Shown: piece after piece, positions 11,877 to 63,452 of the stretch | Layout of the letters: every line of letters starts with the position of its first letter | Position numbering within the stretch: the first letter of the stretch is position 1 | Assembly: GCA_013151915.1 (NCBI GenBank) | Contig: JAADHJ010000023.1 | Location: forward strand, 1-64,000 | DNA: 64,000 nt | Direction: 5' to 3' | DNA from: Deltaproteobacteria bacterium | GTDB lineage: Bacteria > BMS3Abin14 | Notes under the pieces: generated by a model | What the model was told of the DNA's origin: nothing | The model's database searches: none | What the model saw: the letters and a program-made list of their open reading frames with translations, nothing else | Position numbers and translations under genes: made by a program

Positions 11877-11918
11877 CAGGCCGGCCGGCGTCAGGAAGAA
11901 TGTCGTCCTGTTAAATAA

Positions 11919-11975
11919 TGATGATTTCGCAAAAAGTCGTCAACGCGCCCATTTAGGGGCGCCCAAATCAATTAT
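11919..11975 (-). repeat. Family A element, partial copy 1
   Basis: Contains hairpin 5 (gatgatttcgcaaaaagtcg, with G-T pairs) and hairpin 4 (GCGCCC-atttag-GGGCGC) of the element described at 31863-31999, in the opposite orientation. The remaining three hairpins are absent. It sits between the nucleoside-recognition gene and rubredoxin. Confidence 0.8.
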
Positions 11976-16920: not shown

Positions 16921-17508
16921 ATGCCCATGAGTCATCCAGGTAATGATACGGGCGCCGGGGCGGGTCAGGAGTTCCATTATCCGGGCAGTATAGGCCAGTA
17001 TCTGCGGCAGGCATTCGTGAGCGTCAGCCTGGCATTCGCCCTCTCCTTTCTTCTAATCCTTCTTGTAATGATTGTGGACCGATTTTTTTTAAACGGCGAA
17101 TACGTTAAGCCTGCTCATCTCGCCATGGTGACGGGGTTAGCCGCCCTTTGGGGAATGTTTGCGGTGCAGATGGCCTTGTCTCTGGCCCGTTTCAGCCTGG
17201 TGATAGAAAACGGGACACTGCTGGTTTACAGGGGGACCCGGACGGTATCAATCCCCTTTTCCGGCATTGTTTCGGTGGAGATCATGAGTAACCCGGCGTG
17301 GTGGGCCTTGAGAGCGGATTTAAAGCCGTTGAAGGATACCGCCCGTCACATGGTGAGGATAAATCGCGACGCCGGTCCGCCGGTTACTTTCGCGGGCGGT
17401 CTTGTGGGGGAGGAGAAACTGATCCAGCTGATCCAGATGAAAATTGATGACTTAGGCAAGAAGTCATCAATGCGCCCACTTGAGGGCGCACAAATCGAAG
17501 ATTTGTGA
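16921..17508 (+). CDS. Hypothetical membrane protein with PH-like domain; 3' end inside a repeat
   Basis: 195 residues. Two TM helices (about 32-55 and 66-90) are followed by a beta-rich segment (LVIENGTLLVYRGTRTVSIPFSGIVSVEI style) resembling bacterial PH (DUF304-like) domains. No family was confirmed. The last about 22 residues (from KIDDLGKKSS onward, ending QIEDL) are encoded by a family A repeat, whose hairpins 5, 4 and 3 supply the final codons and the stop. The native C-terminus has therefore been replaced or extended by the element. Confidence 0.75.
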   Translation: MPMSHPGNDTGAGAGQEFHYPGSIGQYLRQAFVSVSLAFALSFLLILLVMIVDRFFLNGEYVKPAHLAMVTGLAALWGMFAVQMALSLARFSLVIENGTLLVYRGTRTVSIPFSGIVSVEIMSNPAWWALRADLKPLKDTARHMVRINRDAGPPVTFAGGLVGEEKLIQLIQMKIDDLGKKSSMRPLEGAQIEDL

Positions 17509-17577
17509 GGAAAGTGAAAATGACATTTTTCGCTTCCCGTGGAGTAAAAAGCCATTGATGGATTTTTTACGACCCTG
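17444..17577 (-). repeat. Family A element, full copy 2
   Basis: Complete copy in reverse orientation. In the order read on the plus strand it has hairpin 5 (TTGATGACTT/AAGTCATCAA), hairpin 4 (GCGCCC-acttga-GGGCGC), hairpin 3 (CAAATC-gaa-GATTTG), hairpin 2 (GGAAAGTG ... CGCTTCC) and hairpin 1 (GTAAAAAG ... TTTTTTAC). It overlaps the 3' end of the preceding coding region. Confidence 0.92.
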
Positions 17578-17618
17578 CCAAACTGGACGCCGGCCAGGTG
17601 TCCCGGCAGTGGTTTCCC

Positions 17619-24348: not shown

Positions 24349-25372
24349 AATACTGGCCCGAGTGACAAACGGGGAAAATCTGGACACCGAATCCATGGCT
24401 GCCGCAGTCAGCACCATTATGGATGGAGAGGTCTCTCACACCCAGATGGGAGCGTTCCTGACGGCCCTGAAGGTTCGGGGAGAGACGGAAGAGGAGATCG
24501 CCGGAGCGGCCATGGCGCTTCGGGACCGGTCGGTTCCATTTCCCGGCGGAGATCCGGGCGATGCCCTGGATACCTGCGGGACAGGCGGGGACGGAGCCGG
24601 AACGATCAACGTATCCACCCTCGTTGCCCTGACGGCGGCGGGTGCCGGTGCCAGGGTGGCCAAGCATGGAAACCGTTCCGTTTCCAGCAGGTGCGGCAGC
24701 GCCGATTTGCTGGTGGCCCTTGGGGTCAGAACCGACGTGTCTCCCCATGTGGCTTCCCGGTGTCTCCATGAGACCGGGTTCGCCTTTCTGTTTGCCCCAA
24801 TCTACCATCCTGCCATGAAGGCGGTGGCCCCGGTGAGAAAGGATCTTGGATTCCGAACACTTTTTAACCTTATCGGCCCCCTTTGCAATCCAGCGGGGGT
24901 CAAAAGGCAATTGTTGGGAGTTTTCAGCGTGGAACTGGTACCACTAATGGCCGGCGTACTATCCAGGCTCGGAACGAAAAGAGCCATGGTTGTCTCTTCA
25001 AAGGACGGTCTGGACGAGATCTCCGTCAGTTCTTCCACCACCGTCGCCGAGGTCATTGAAGGAGGAGGGGTCAGGATGAGGACCCTGGAACCCGAAGACT
25101 ACGGGATCAATCGGGCGAAAAAGGGCGTTCTCAAAGGAGGCACGCCCGAGGAAAACGCCGCGATCTCCCTGGAGATACTTCAGGGCGGCAACGGACCTGT
25201 GAGGGACGCGGTACTGCTCAATACGGCCGCGGCCCTTGAAATGGCCGGCGTCGCGGGGGATATGCGCGAGGGCCTTGATCTCGCAGCCCACTCCATAGAC
25301 CGTGGGTTGGCCATTGGAGTGCTGGAAAGGGTGAGGTCGATAACTAATGATGACTTCGCGAGAAATCATTAA
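24338..25372 (+). CDS. trpD: Anthranilate phosphoribosyltransferase
   Basis: 344 residues; transfers phosphoribosyl from PRPP to anthranilate. Family motifs: DTCGTGGDGAGTINVST (PRPP loop), KHGNRSVSSRCGSADLL, NLIGPLCNPAG, and DGLDEIS. The start at ATG 24338 was chosen by GAAGGAGG eight bp upstream. The last residues (ITNDDFARNH) are encoded by a partial family A repeat that supplies the stop codon, so the C-terminus is not the ancestral one. The enzyme core is complete and activity should be retained. Confidence 0.96.
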   Translation: MMREILARVTNGENLDTESMAAAVSTIMDGEVSHTQMGAFLTALKVRGETEEEIAGAAMALRDRSVPFPGGDPGDALDTCGTGGDGAGTINVSTLVALTAAGAGARVAKHGNRSVSSRCGSADLLVALGVRTDVSPHVASRCLHETGFAFLFAPIYHPAMKAVAPVRKDLGFRTLFNLIGPLCNPAGVKRQLLGVFSVELVPLMAGVLSRLGTKRAMVVSSKDGLDEISVSSSTTVAEVIEGGGVRMRTLEPEDYGINRAKKGVLKGGTPEENAAISLEILQGGNGPVRDAVLLNTAAALEMAGVAGDMREGLDLAAHSIDRGLAIGVLERVRSITNDDFARNH

Positions 25373-25412
25373 CGCGCCCCCGATGGGCGCGCAAATCGAA
25401 GATTTGCAAGGA
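25349..25412 (-). repeat. Family A element, partial copy 3, within the trp operon
   Basis: Reverse-orientation partial copy: hairpin 5 variant (aatgatgacttcgcgagaaa...), hairpin 4 (an 'acgcgcccccgatgggcgcg' variant) and hairpin 3 (CAAATC-gaa-GATTTG), then caaggaaaa. It lies exactly between trpD and trpC, providing the trpD stop and the AAGGA ribosome-binding site of trpC. Confidence 0.85.
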
Positions 25413-25420
25413 AAACGGAT

Positions 25421-26200
25421 ATGAAAAACAGTTTTCTCGAAACGGCCGGTAAATCGGCGGCTGTTAATACCTCCGTGTGGAAGAAACGCTTCCGGCAGGC
25501 GGAAATCCAGGGACCGATATCCAGGCCTCCCCTTCTTCCCGGAAATGGCGCCGGGTGCGGCATTATCGCCGAGGTCAAGCTGAAAAGCCCGTCCCGTGGG
25601 GCGCTCATCGACATGCCTCATGCTCTGGATCTGCCTGGGATATACGAGTCAGGCGGCGCCGAGGCGGTGAGCGTTGTCGTGGAGGAGCGTTATTTCGGTG
25701 GGTCGCCGGAGCTTTTCATGAAAATTGCCGCCGGAACGCGGCTTCCACTCCTCTGGAAAGACTTCGTCGTTGATCCTTTCCAGGTAGAACTGGCGGCCGG
25801 ACTGGGTGCTTCGGGCATCCTCCTTATCGCGGGCCTGCTCAGGGGCACATCCCTGCCGGAGATGATCGAGAGGAGCCGGCGTGAGGGTCTGCGGCCCTTG
25901 GTTGAGGTGCACGATGAGGATGAGCTTTCCGCGGCTCTTGACGGAGGCGCCGACCTCATCGGGGTAAACAACCGCAATCTGGCGACCCTGGAGGTGGACA
26001 CCGGCCTTTCCGAAAGGTTGGCCCCTTTTATCTGTGGCCCGGTCCAGGGCGTCGCCGAGAGCGGCTTTCGCCTGGCGGAGGATATCCGGAGAATGAGGGA
26101 TCTTGGTTACAGGGCGGTCCTGGTCGGGGAGGCGCTGATCAGATCCACGGGATCAGAGGGAAAATTGGGCGCCATGGTCGGTGCCGGGAGGACAGGATGA
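25421..26200 (+). CDS. trpC: Indole-3-glycerol phosphate synthase
   Basis: 259-residue TIM-barrel enzyme that closes the indole ring of CdRP. Motifs: AEVKLKSPSRG (catalytic Lys), LWKDFVVDPFQ, LLIAGLL, PLVEVHDEDEL, GVNNRNLATLEVD and AESGF. The N-terminal extension is short. AAGGA before ATG 25421 derives from the repeat just upstream. The start of trpF overlaps by 4 bp. Confidence 0.95.
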   Translation: MKNSFLETAGKSAAVNTSVWKKRFRQAEIQGPISRPPLLPGNGAGCGIIAEVKLKSPSRGALIDMPHALDLPGIYESGGAEAVSVVVEERYFGGSPELFMKIAAGTRLPLLWKDFVVDPFQVELAAGLGASGILLIAGLLRGTSLPEMIERSRREGLRPLVEVHDEDELSAALDGGADLIGVNNRNLATLEVDTGLSERLAPFICGPVQGVAESGFRLAEDIRRMRDLGYRAVLVGEALIRSTGSEGKLGAMVGAGRTG

Positions 26201-28865: not shown

Positions 28866-28960
28866 GGTGTTTTAAACCCAAGGTCCAAGGTTGATGACTT
28901 CGTAAAAAGCCATTAATGGACTTTTTGCGACCCTATCAACGTCCAACGTCCAATGTGAAA
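28866..28960. repeat. Family A minimal copy 4 with flanking 'ccaaggt/ccaacgt' tracts
   Basis: 28890-28940 joins both ends of family A around hairpin 1 only: GTTGATGACTTCGTAAAAAG ... CTTTTTGCGACCCTATCAAC. This shows the two termini are inverted repeats of each other. Flanking aaggtccaagg and caacgtccaacgtccaatg are short heptamer-like tracts. Confidence 0.8.
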
Positions 28961-31515: not shown

Positions 31516-32035
31516 GCTTGCCATCTAAAACCGGCGAGTTATACTATAAGTGAAGGCTGCCCGGGAGGTCCGGAAACGCTTTGCAATGTTGAGCGTTGAG
31601 TCGGAATCCGGTTCTCCAGCCCGTCGGCACAGCTCCCCTCCATTCAAATCGGCCACCCGCTGTGCCGGGGTTTCCCATAAAGGGCAGCCTTTTTTGTGTG
31701 GTCAGGCCGTGATCTTCGGCATATCCCTGATTAAATCCTCACATCCCGCATGGTTTCGCAGAGAAGATCTAAAACCCATAATAGTGGATGATACCTTTAG
31801 GCACCTTTGGAAATTGTCTTCTCTCTGTTATACTGCCCCACGGTGTCTTGGGTGCGTAACATTGATAGGGTCGTAAAAAGTCCATTAATGGCTTTTTACT
31901 CCACGGAAAGCGAAAAGTGTCATTTTCACTTTCCTCACAAATCTTCGATTTGAGCGCCCTTCAGTGGGCGCGTTGATGACTTTTTGCGAAGTCATCAACT
32001 TTTATGCTTTAAACCCCGTTTCAGTGAAGGAGGTT
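31516..32035. other. 520-bp gap: inverted repeat plus full family A element
   Basis: The first part contains a 9-bp inverted repeat CGGCACAGC (31625-31633) / GCTGTGCCG (31659-31667) with a 25-nt loop, followed by a gggcagccttttttg stretch; this could be an RNA structure but no family was recognised. The second part (31863-31999) is family A copy 5. The downstream methyltransferase gene starts 36 bp after the element. Confidence 0.6.
31863..31999 (+). repeat. Family A element, full reference copy 5 (five tandem hairpins)
   Basis: The reference copy. Hairpin 1, 31873-31899: GTAAAAAG(T)CCAT-ta-ATGGCTTTTTAC. Hairpin 2, 31905-31934: GGAAAGCGAAAA ... TTTTCACTTTCC. Hairpin 3, 31938-31952: CAAATC-ttc-GATTTG. 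Hairpin 4, 31954-31971: GCGCCC-ttcagt-GGGCGC. Hairpin 5, 31972-31999: GTTGATGACTT-tttgcg-AAGTCATCAAC. The ends (ttgatagggtcgtaaaaag and the hairpin 5 arm) are related inverted repeats. Confidence 0.95.
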
Positions 32036-36317: not shown

Positions 36318-36409
36318 GGGTGTGCACGCCTTTCGACTTCACAACCGTTTGATGGTAAGTTGCTGCTGCTGCCAGGCACAGTTGTAATTTGTAATAATAA
36401 TGTTGAACA

Positions 36410-36566
36410 TTGATAGGGTCGCAAAAAGTCCATTTATGGCTTTTTGCTCCACGGAAAGCGAAAAGTGTCATTTTCACTTTCCTTACAAATCATGACTTAC
36501 AACGCAAGTCATTGATTTGGGCGCCCCTCAGTGGGCGCATTGATGACTTTTTGCGAAGTCATCAAC
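36410..36566 (+). repeat. Family A element, full copy 6 with expanded hairpin 3
   Basis: Same five-hairpin order as copy 5. Hairpin 1 is GCAAAAAG ... CTTTTTGC (36421-36447), a compensated T-A to C-G pair change relative to copy 5. Hairpin 3 is enlarged: CAAATCATGACTT ... AAGTCATTGATTTG (36486-36519). Hairpin 4 GCGCCC-ctcagt-GGGCGC and hairpin 5 are kept. Confidence 0.95.
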
Positions 36567-36613
36567 ATTGAACCAACCGTAGCTCGAAGAGCGAAGGTGA
36601 AAGGAAAGCGAAC

Positions 36614-41493: not shown

Positions 41494-41544
41494 AGCGCGC
41501 GCGAAAGCTGCCGAATCTGCGTAATACATGGAAAAAATGTTATT

Positions 41545-41582
41545 CTCCGGAGGGCCTTACAGGTTCTCCGGAGTTTTTTTTT
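41545..41582 (+). terminator. dnaK terminator
   Basis: CTCCGGAG (41545-41552) and CTCCGGAG (41566-41573), self-complementary, enclose a 13-nt loop and are followed by nine T. Confidence 0.85.
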
Positions 41583-41588
41583 GCCTTT

Positions 41589-41675
41589 CGAAGATTTGTG
41601 AGAAAAGTGAAAATGACACTTTTCGCTTTCCGTTGAGTAAAAAGCCGTGGAAGGACTTTTTACGACCCTGTTAAA
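41589..41675 (-). repeat. Family A element, partial copy 7
   Basis: Reverse orientation; half of hairpin 3 (gaagatttgtg), full hairpin 2 (agaaaagtgaaaatgacact...) and hairpin 1 (GTAAAAAGCC ... ACTTTTTAC). It lies directly behind the dnaK terminator T-run. Confidence 0.88.
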
Positions 41676-41726
41676 CTGATATAGTAATAAAATGCCCCGC
41701 ATTCATGAAGGAAAGTTGACACTATA

Positions 41727-42699: not shown

Positions 42700-42799
42700 A
42701 GGAACCTGGAACTCGAGGTCCAGCGTCCAGGGACCAAGGTTCAATATTGATAGGGTCGTAAAAAGTCCATCCACATTCCTTGGATTTCGGAGGTTTGCC
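42700..42799. repeat. Heptamer-like tract and family A end (copy 8)
   Basis: 42700-42746 holds ggaacctggaactcgaggtc-like near-repeats; 42747-42770 is the left end of family A (ttgatagggtcgtaaaaagt) truncated after hairpin 1's first arm. Confidence 0.75.
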
Positions 42800-43128: not shown

Positions 43129-43282
43129 TTGATTTGGTCGTAAAAAGTCCATTAATGGCTTTTTACTTCACGGAAAGCGAAAAGTGTCATTTTCACTTTC
43201 CTCACAAATCTTCGATTTGAGCGCCCCTCAGTGGGCGCGTTGATGACTCCTTGCGAAAGTATCAACCTGCGAAGTCATCAAC
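43129..43282 (+). repeat. Family A element, full copy 9
   Basis: Five hairpins as in copy 5: GTAAAAAGTCC ... CTTTTTAC, GGAAAGCGAAAA ... CACTTTCC, CAAATC-ttc-GATTTG, GCGCCC-ctcagt-GGGCGC and a duplicated, slightly degenerate hairpin 5 (gttgatgactccttgcgaaag tatcaac then gcgaagtcatcaac). Confidence 0.93.
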
Positions 43283-50983: not shown

Positions 50984-50992
50984 CATTATTTA

Positions 50993-51062
50993 TAGTGTCG
51001 TAAAAAGTCTATTCGTGGCTTTTTACTCCACGGAAAGCGAAAAGTGTCATTTTCACTTTCCT
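50993..51062 (+). repeat. Family A element, partial copy 10
   Basis: Forward orientation; hairpin 1 (gtaaaaagtctattcgtggctttttac) variant and hairpin 2 (GGAAAGCGAAAA ... CACTTTCC), then truncated. It ends 28 bp before the stop of the antiporter gene. Confidence 0.85.
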
Positions 51063-52661: not shown

Positions 52662-53178
52662 AAAGGGGAATCTCCGCCCTGCTAACCTTGACAACCTCGC
52701 AAGAAGTCTCTTGGAATCTTTTCCTCCGGCTCCAATCGGCTCATGTACTTCCTCCTGATCGTAAAACCGTCAGGTATCAACCCCGGTTTTTAGAGGTAAG
52801 CACAGGAGATGGCGGCCGTCAAGATTGATGACTTTGCAAGGGAAGTAAAAATGACATTTTTCGCTTTCCGTGGAGTAAAAAGCCATGGCTGGACTTTTTA
52901 CGACCCCCTCAAGATATGGTTTTGCCAAAAACCTGTAAAAAAAATCACTACTCGGCCAAAAAACTACTTGCGCTCAGGTTATGATATACTGTATTTTGTA
53001 TACAGGATGTTTATGTAGGTGTGATAGGGAGTAAAAACGTCCGTTTGTTACCACATATATCGGTTCATCCTGAATTTTCTCGAGGATAATGGCCCTTAAT
53101 TTTCGGTGTAATCATCGTACCGTATTTTAGGGGCATTCAGAAAACCGTAACAGTTACCTACGGCAAAGGAGAAAGAAA
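52662..53178. other. 517-bp gap: family A copy 11, family B end and citrate synthase control region
   Basis: 52825-52907 is a reverse family A copy with hairpins 5 (one arm), 2 and 1. An ORF starting inside it (atgacatttttcgctttccg...) runs on for about 40 codons with no homology. 53063-53080 carries ggttcatcctgaattttctc, a family B end. A dyad with a -10-like TATACT lies at 52986-53005. Remaining sequence shows nothing recognisable. Confidence 0.7.
52989..53005. promoter_or_regulatory. Dyad overlapping the citrate synthase promoter region
   Basis: CTGTAT-tttgt-ATACAG (52989-53005) overlaps a -10-like TATACT (52985-52990) and contains ttgtataca, the core of many GntR-family operators. It lies about 175 bp upstream of the start codon. 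Resembles the tgtatac-containing dyad ahead of the malic enzyme gene. Confidence 0.45.
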
Positions 53179-57447: not shown

Positions 57448-57473
57448 GTTGATATGGTCGTAAAAAGTCCATC
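57448..57473 (+). repeat. Family A element end, copy 12
   Basis: gttgatatggtcgtaaaaag tccat (57448-57473), the left terminus only, 21 bp before the ferredoxin start. Confidence 0.7.
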
Positions 57474-57493
57474 CCCATCGTACGGAGGTCTCC

Positions 57494-63046: not shown

Positions 63047-63452
63047 GGGATTGCGGCAGGGTACATAGTTTTACCACAGTACAGCCGCTTGCAGGCTGCT
63101 CCACAGGGTTTTACGGAGAAAATCTTAAAACTTTGGGTTAAGGAGCGGCTCACCGCAATAAGGCGCATTGGTTTGTCGGGGAGTTTGAAGGGTATGATGT
63201 ATTCTATCCTCTCACCCAACCGCTCTCTGGTCGGAGCGGGATTTCCTTGAAATCGGCTGGTTATCCTTGCACCCTGGATCAAAGTTCACTTTCATCCAGG
63301 GCAACAAGGATCAACAGCAACTTGGGTGAGGGGAGTCGCTTTCCTCCATCCCCTTCATCCCTGTTAAATCAGCACTGCCTTATCCATTCTCTTCGTTCTG
63401 TTCCCCGTGTCTGTTTTTCTCCTCTCTGGACTCTGGACTCTCGACTCTGGAC
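63047..63452. repeat. 406-bp gap: family C, a long hairpin and a 'ctctggactc' tract
   Basis: 63073-63109 is a family C copy (accacagtacagccgcttgc...). 63265-63309 is a hairpin CCTTG-CA-CCCTGGAT ... ATCCAGGG-caa-CAAGG (inner 8 bp, outer 5 bp). 63422-63450 holds ctctggactctggactctcg. No ORF with recognisable homology. Confidence 0.65.

Follow-up and report, generated by a model that had tools for sequence, protein, structure and literature searches.

The stretch of DNA analysed here (the window) comprises positions 1-64,000 of contig JAADHJ010000023.1 from the source assembly GCA_013151915.1 (2.27 Mb), which we call the own genome. It carries copies of a dispersed repeat, Family A, and one full copy serves as the reference. 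Its parts are:

31858-31863: left target duplication, AACATT (sequence, flank statistics)
31864-31996, plus strand: core, short form, 133 bp, GATAGGGTCGTAAAAAGTC...GACTTTTTGCGAAGTCATC (ends placed by comparison of copies and by the wider end-group)
31873-31899, plus strand: hairpin 1, GTAAAAAG...CTTTTTAC, including AAAAAGTC, part of the left inverted repeat (folds, covariation)
31905-31934, plus strand: hairpin 2, GGAAAGCGAAAA...TTTTCACTTTCC, with a mismatch that is C-A on the plus and G-T on the minus strand (folds; other copies have C-G, G-C or U-A there)
31938-31952, plus strand: hairpin 3, short form, CAAATC-TTC-GATTTG (folds, covariation)
31954-31971, plus strand: hairpin 4, GCGCCC...GGGCGC (folds, covariation)
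31973-31998, plus strand: hairpin 5, TTGATGACTT...AAGTCATCAA, the right end folded on itself (folds, covariation)
31997-32002: right target duplication, AACTTT, with one difference from the left (sequence, flank statistics)

A five-hairpin element had originally been predicted at 31863-31999. The element itself stands, and its ends are corrected: the core is 31864-31996, running from GAT to ATC with GATAGGGTCG followed by hairpins 1 to 5 in order, and it is flanked by a 6-bp target duplication. Folded as DNA, the copy at 31863-31999 forms exactly five hairpins at -35.0 kcal/mol, against a shuffled mean of -13.8, and the fold of 31858-32004 as single-stranded DNA reaches a z of -7.9 on the plus strand and -8.8 on the minus strand. 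The five consecutive hairpins are thus borne out by folding, as they are by covariation far above controls. The prediction that the termini are inverted repeats also holds, the ends being mutually inverted (GATAGGGTCGYAAAAAGTC / GATGACTTCGCAAAAAGTC), with the left end reading GATAGGGTCGTAAAAAGTC and the right end, read from the right, GATGACTTCGCAAAAAGTC; these inverted ends span about 19 bp, GATRRSKTCGYAAAAAGTC. The outer T-A pairs of hairpin 5 extend into the target duplication, and on the plus strand this hairpin with the T run that follows it is terminator-like.

Twelve copies had been claimed in the 64 kb. A covariance model built on 32 copies detects ten of them (at 31858, 36406, 43125, 17438, 41541, 50985, 52746, 25341, 11912 and 28809), and an end model recovers the other two, both left-end fragments about 25 bp long. 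The copy at 28890, said to join both ends, does so in a derivative of roughly 47 bp with a single hairpin. Besides the reference copy, the window holds:

36412-36563, plus strand: full copy, long form, 152 bp, with AACATT on both sides (36406-36411 and 36564-36569)
43131-43264, plus strand: full copy, short form, hairpin 5 divergent
17446-17579, minus strand: full copy, short form
41541-41678, minus strand: partial copy, left part up to hairpin 3
50985-51062, plus strand: partial copy, hairpins 1 and 2
52833-52916, minus strand: partial copy, hairpins 1 and 2
25348-25424, minus strand: partial copy, right part, hairpins 3 to 5
11912-11972, minus strand: partial copy, right part, hairpins 4 and 5
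28892-28938, minus strand: mini derivative, about 47 bp, left end fused to right end in one hairpin
42748-42773, plus strand: left-end fragment, about 25 bp, directly upstream of a gene start
57450-57474, plus strand: left-end fragment, about 25 bp, directly upstream of a gene start

Both left-end fragments break off after AAAAAGTCCATCC, and the same break recurs elsewhere. The core measures 133 bp in the short form, which is common in the own genome, or about 153 bp in the long form, which is usual in other genomes of the phylum and differs by a longer hairpin 3; the longer nested stem described at 36486 is real, and the relatives normally have it.

The repeat had been proposed to be a dispersed structured family of which a covariance-model search should find further copies, and across the 2.27 Mb of the own genome that search yields at least 150 (151 matches, from scoring 150 of 1800 candidates); BLAST with the reference copy gives at least 68 matches in the same genome (40 of 300 candidates scored). 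About 130 matches lie in 823 kb of the own genome, a sample consisting of the window and 40 stretches picked around copies. Most copies consist of the plain five hairpins. Where copies stand in tandem, adjacent units have one 6-mer in common, and derivatives in genome G004 (loci L253, L239 and L233) form arrays, the longest about 416 bp, with repeated units of hairpins 1/2 and 4 that have diverged yet still pair. Several contigs of G000 and its relatives start or stop inside Family A copies, and assembly breaks inside the repeats likely hide further ones.

The flanks record how these copies arrived. Identical 6-mers stand at both ends of 19 of 85 non-tandem copies, where 1.7 are expected and the maximum in 1000 shuffles is 6; the excess of identity sits at positions 2-5 of the 6-mer, its outer A and T being nearly fixed. 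Perfect duplications are found in a minority of own copies, as expected if most copies are old. Comparison with the sister species G001, which is 84.7% identical in aligned parts, reveals sites that are empty in one of the two species and contain a single copy of the target, in both directions: L099:16688, L099:9024, L139:3492, L105:1456 and L148:18956, and L121:5666 of G001 against the window near 63264. Clear shared insertions between the two species number only three, against at least five empty sites. Most of the size-matched 'filled' sites from the ortholog scan were discarded, as alignment showed no orthologous copy there. Insertion of Family A at AT-rich sites with a 6-bp duplication is thus established. 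The family is short, has no coding capacity, and combines terminal inverted repeats and a target duplication with high copy number, dispersal and polymorphism between relatives, which are the properties of a MITE; an autonomous partner with matching ends would add support, but such partners are often lost and the class does not demand one. Family A is a mobile, non-autonomous, MITE-like five-hairpin family.

Family A is present in 11 of 12 genomes of the phylum, all of one family, and is absent from the complete genome G002 of that phylum. No full element was found in 374 genomes from other families, and an exact-pattern scan of 84,980 species, from which the own record was possibly left out, returned only PFL40, CSMAG_1715, ZodW_Metabat.265 and SZUA-178, all metagenome-assembled. 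The end hairpin reaches further. Its weak matches in G370, G275, G053 and G098 belong to different short elements that have these ends and are flanked by 6-bp duplications. Matching ends and duplication size occur in short elements of at least four unrelated families; end matches number 145 in G370 and 222 in G275, with 0 for a reversed-pattern control. The ends of these elements, and of those on the viral contigs L302-L306, read GATGRMYTCGYAARAAGTC as in Family A, and the genomic members also have in common with it the 6-bp AT-rich duplication. Their interiors differ from that of Family A: the elements of G275, G053 and some of G370 are single fold-back stems, and the main G370 element is multi-hairpin like Family A with an unrelated interior. 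On the viral (phage) contigs another short element has these inverted ends (GATGGCTTCGCAAAAAGTCCAAT...), in some cases at the same site across contigs. Searches of phages and plasmids gave no match to the Family A element itself, nor did two related elements match any plasmid. Around position 1500 of L281 in G370 lies a lone hairpin-5-like palindrome of 22 bp with AACCTT on both sides, possibly the smallest inserting unit. The end sequence was not found in a repeat context in the open literature; Family A is a well-supported mobile repeat family, apparently new to the literature, and forms the five-hairpin branch of a wider end-group that is apparently new as well. It is the dominant dispersed repeat of a small bacterial phylum, and the wider group to which it is tied has its ends and target size in common.

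The flanks of this wider group also bear on the mode of insertion. Over 6 bp, 26 of 45 elements have identical flanks, where 0.8 are expected and the maximum is 4, and the exact match is rarely longer. Six-bp flanks and hairpin-rich ends could also be produced by a tyrosine recombinase inserting with a 6-bp overlap, in a manner resembling Tn916 or integron cassettes. Coupling sequences of the Tn916 type usually differ between the two flanks, so the 26 of 45 identical flanks, as in a duplication, argue against a tyrosine recombinase, and we give that mechanism almost no credence.

As to what moves Family A, the original prediction had pointed to a broken RAYT in the window as one possible source of the enzyme, and had proposed a search for RAYT or IS200/IS605 enzymes with matching ends. 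The window does contain, at 1263-1571 on the minus strand, a truncated Y1_Tnp-like ORF of 102 aa (21.4 bits, against a Pfam cut-off of 23). On this reading the elements would be REP- or BIME-like palindromes moved by a RAYT or another HUH enzyme of the IS200/IS605 type, as would suit a palindromic, intergenic, high-copy element whose orientation is weakly tied to GC skew (p 0.016); two genomes with many copies, G004 and G005, also encode intact short Y1 transposases. Across the phylum, however, enzyme and element do not go together: the element-rich genomes G007, G008 (98% complete), G010 and G011 lack Y1_Tnp genes, and the element-free G002 has them. Y1 loci are not flanked by the element, a copy of which is nearby at just two of 14 of them, and the consensus ends have neither a GTAG nor a CGTC tag. 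To our knowledge, HUH/Y1 enzymes make no target duplications, which sets the 6-bp flanks apart from their products. With no co-occurrence, little linkage and the wrong flanks, movement by RAYT or IS200 was rejected as highly improbable.

The original prediction had also stated that no transposase for the element is visible in the window, and the wider search agrees in finding none with matching ends. Among the 12 genomes of the phylum, loci of PF01609, PF00665, PF00872, PF13751 and PF01797, four of these families being of DDE type, have no flanking pair of these ends around the gene. A solo-end search for an autonomous IS with the same ends found none, multi-copy ORFs are almost absent from the 823 kb of the own genome, and in the stretches of G370 and G275 no convergent pair of ends enclosed a transposase. 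We also considered a possible link to ISDol1, which we take to make duplications of 6-7 bp. At the contig start, 6-641 of the window encodes the C-terminal portion of a transposase of the IS256 type (PF00872, E 4.5e-62); the own genome has no other match of this kind. A sequence common to the ends of the G001 contigs L130 and L132 resembled an IS end and was set aside as the end of a duplicated gene; at L130:8719 and L132:282 this gene, which on reading its sequence resembles a GIY-YIG nuclease, is followed by a 25-bp left-end fragment. The probable mover is a DDE-type transposase acting in trans.

We further analyzed pairing in the hairpins, using 45 long-form copies from the family's genomes. 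Paired stem cells make up 92.8%, and 13 pairs and 47 cells are changed on both sides, against 6.6 pairs and 17.8 cells after shuffling and at most 7 pairs and 9 cells in a slid-partner control. The pair changes are compensated, as predicted. The change in hairpin 1 from GTAAAAAG/CTTTTTAC to GCAAAAAG/CTTTTTGC, which that prediction cited, is real and common, the pair being CG in 26 of these copies, UA in 18 and UG in 1. Since kinship among copies can inflate these numbers, a second count was restricted to changes present in no more than two own copies; it gave 16 compensated cells, spread over 11 pairs and touching every one of the five hairpins, against an expectation of 2.2. Seven clear copies have hairpin 5 with an inverted loop (TTTTTGCGAA to TTCGCAAGAA and similar), in both short and long forms, and a tree of the remainder of the element, itself poorly resolved, needs seven changes to account for them. 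At one site occupied in both sister species (L109:8405 and L123:8993) hairpin 3 is long in one and short in the other, which may reflect gene conversion from another copy or two separate insertions into the same position.

Compensatory changes could instead have been inherited from a few master copies, so that the hairpins, still of a MITE, would reflect ancestry rather than ongoing maintenance. Pair 11-35, changed from T-A to C-G, is common to 33 copies, as a subfamily trait would be, yet the 16 private cells fall at 11 other pairs, and the shared insertion L151:18380 / L126:7509 has T-A in one species and G-C in the other at the base of hairpin 5, an exchange made in place. We regard inheritance from master copies as unlikely. 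Double changes together with loop inversions are described footprints of template switching in DNA replication (PMC8794818), and these patterns suggest that the hairpins extrude in DNA and are partly self-maintained by such switching. With many independent private double changes that preserve pairing, and with loop flips, spread over hundreds of dispersed copies, Family A is a natural test set for the idea that stems stay paired through template switching rather than selection alone.

Conserved structure of this kind might also belong to a structured RNA, cis-regulatory or mRNA-processing, kept by the host at many sites, its mobility being secondary. Family A copies lie mostly between genes, and their orientation there is biased: with gene positions from simple ORF calls, the minus strand is sense in 32 gaps between co-directional genes and the plus strand in 9 (p = 4e-4), or 46:17 with a looser ORF set. 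This bias, the covariation and the constant mismatch in hairpin 2, which is C-A on the plus strand but G-U on the minus strand, would all suit an RNA. Apart from that one position, however, stem deviations are equally often G-U (90) and A-C (82); this balance speaks against selection acting on a single RNA strand, and that proposal was rejected. Set against an RNA kept by the host are also the scarcity of shared insertions between the sister species, the fact that G002 lives without the element, and an Rfam search with Family A, in which no family scored above the gathering score. We judge a host-kept RNA to be improbable. The only terminator-like match in the region is hairpin 5 with its T-rich flank on the plus strand, and the orientation bias is probably the result of counterselection of the terminator orientation of hairpin 5 in operons.

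Taken together, we consider it likely, with good confidence, that Family A is a MITE family whose ends are recognised in trans by a 6-bp-duplicating transposase of the DDE kind, whose hairpins are partly maintained by template switching and whose terminator orientation is counterselected. A transposase of the cut-and-paste or copy type, supplied in trans, would recognise the inverted ends of about 19 bp and insert the element into AT-rich, mostly intergenic 6-bp sites, duplicating them. A polymerase switching template between the arms of extruded hairpins could then produce double changes in one step and flip loops, and pairing might also be kept by the amplification of well-formed copies alone; where a copy lies in an operon, selection would act against the orientation that makes hairpin 5 and its T-rich flank a terminator. 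Conservation of the interior across genera, seen in Family A but not required of a plain MITE, counts against this explanation, as does the negative outcome of the transposase searches. More speculatively, and with considerable doubt, the array of separate hairpins may, beyond the inverted ends, be a cis-acting signal for mobility that repairs itself by template switching, restoring pairs and flipping loops in place. If so, no hairpin-array branch of a cross-lineage end-group would have been described before Family A, and one set of transposase-recognised ends would have acquired unrelated hairpin interiors on at least two occasions, in the phylum of the window and in G370.

Among known systems, the REP, BIME and REPIN palindromes (PMC3116915, PMC2817692) are dispersed, intergenic and high-copy as Family A is, but make no target duplication and are linked to RAYT, and Family A is the opposite on both counts. 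In place of a palindrome of 20-40 bp with a GTAG or CGTC tag it has consensus ends GATAGGGTCG and GTCATC, no RAYT flanked by the repeats was found in the same genomes, and its 6-bp duplication separates it from IS200/IS605 derivatives, which have none. ERIC and Correia (NEMIS) elements are MITE-like intergenic palindromes of about 100-160 bp that can act in transcripts; they have TA target duplications and one long fold-back, whereas Family A has a 6-bp duplication and five separate hairpins. The transcript effects of elements of this type have been reviewed (PMC3049150). By description, the bcr1-bcr3 repeats of Bacillus cereus are, like Family A, intergenic, high-copy, confined to one lineage, MITE-like and tied to a short target motif, often in untranslated regions or operon gaps, with no known mover; they differ in their TTTAT target motif, in having no known modular hairpin array and in belonging to another phylum (PMC3446304, PMC6542083). 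BOX of Streptococcus pneumoniae is likewise MITE-like, intergenic and of variable length, with modular stem-loops in variable number, and its ends have been compared with ISSpn2, whereas Family A has no known IS (PMC3049150). Unlike in BOX, multiplication of modules (hairpins 1/2 and 4) is confined in Family A to some relatives, in the G004 arrays; Family A has a variable module number of the BOX type, a likeness of architecture and not of membership.
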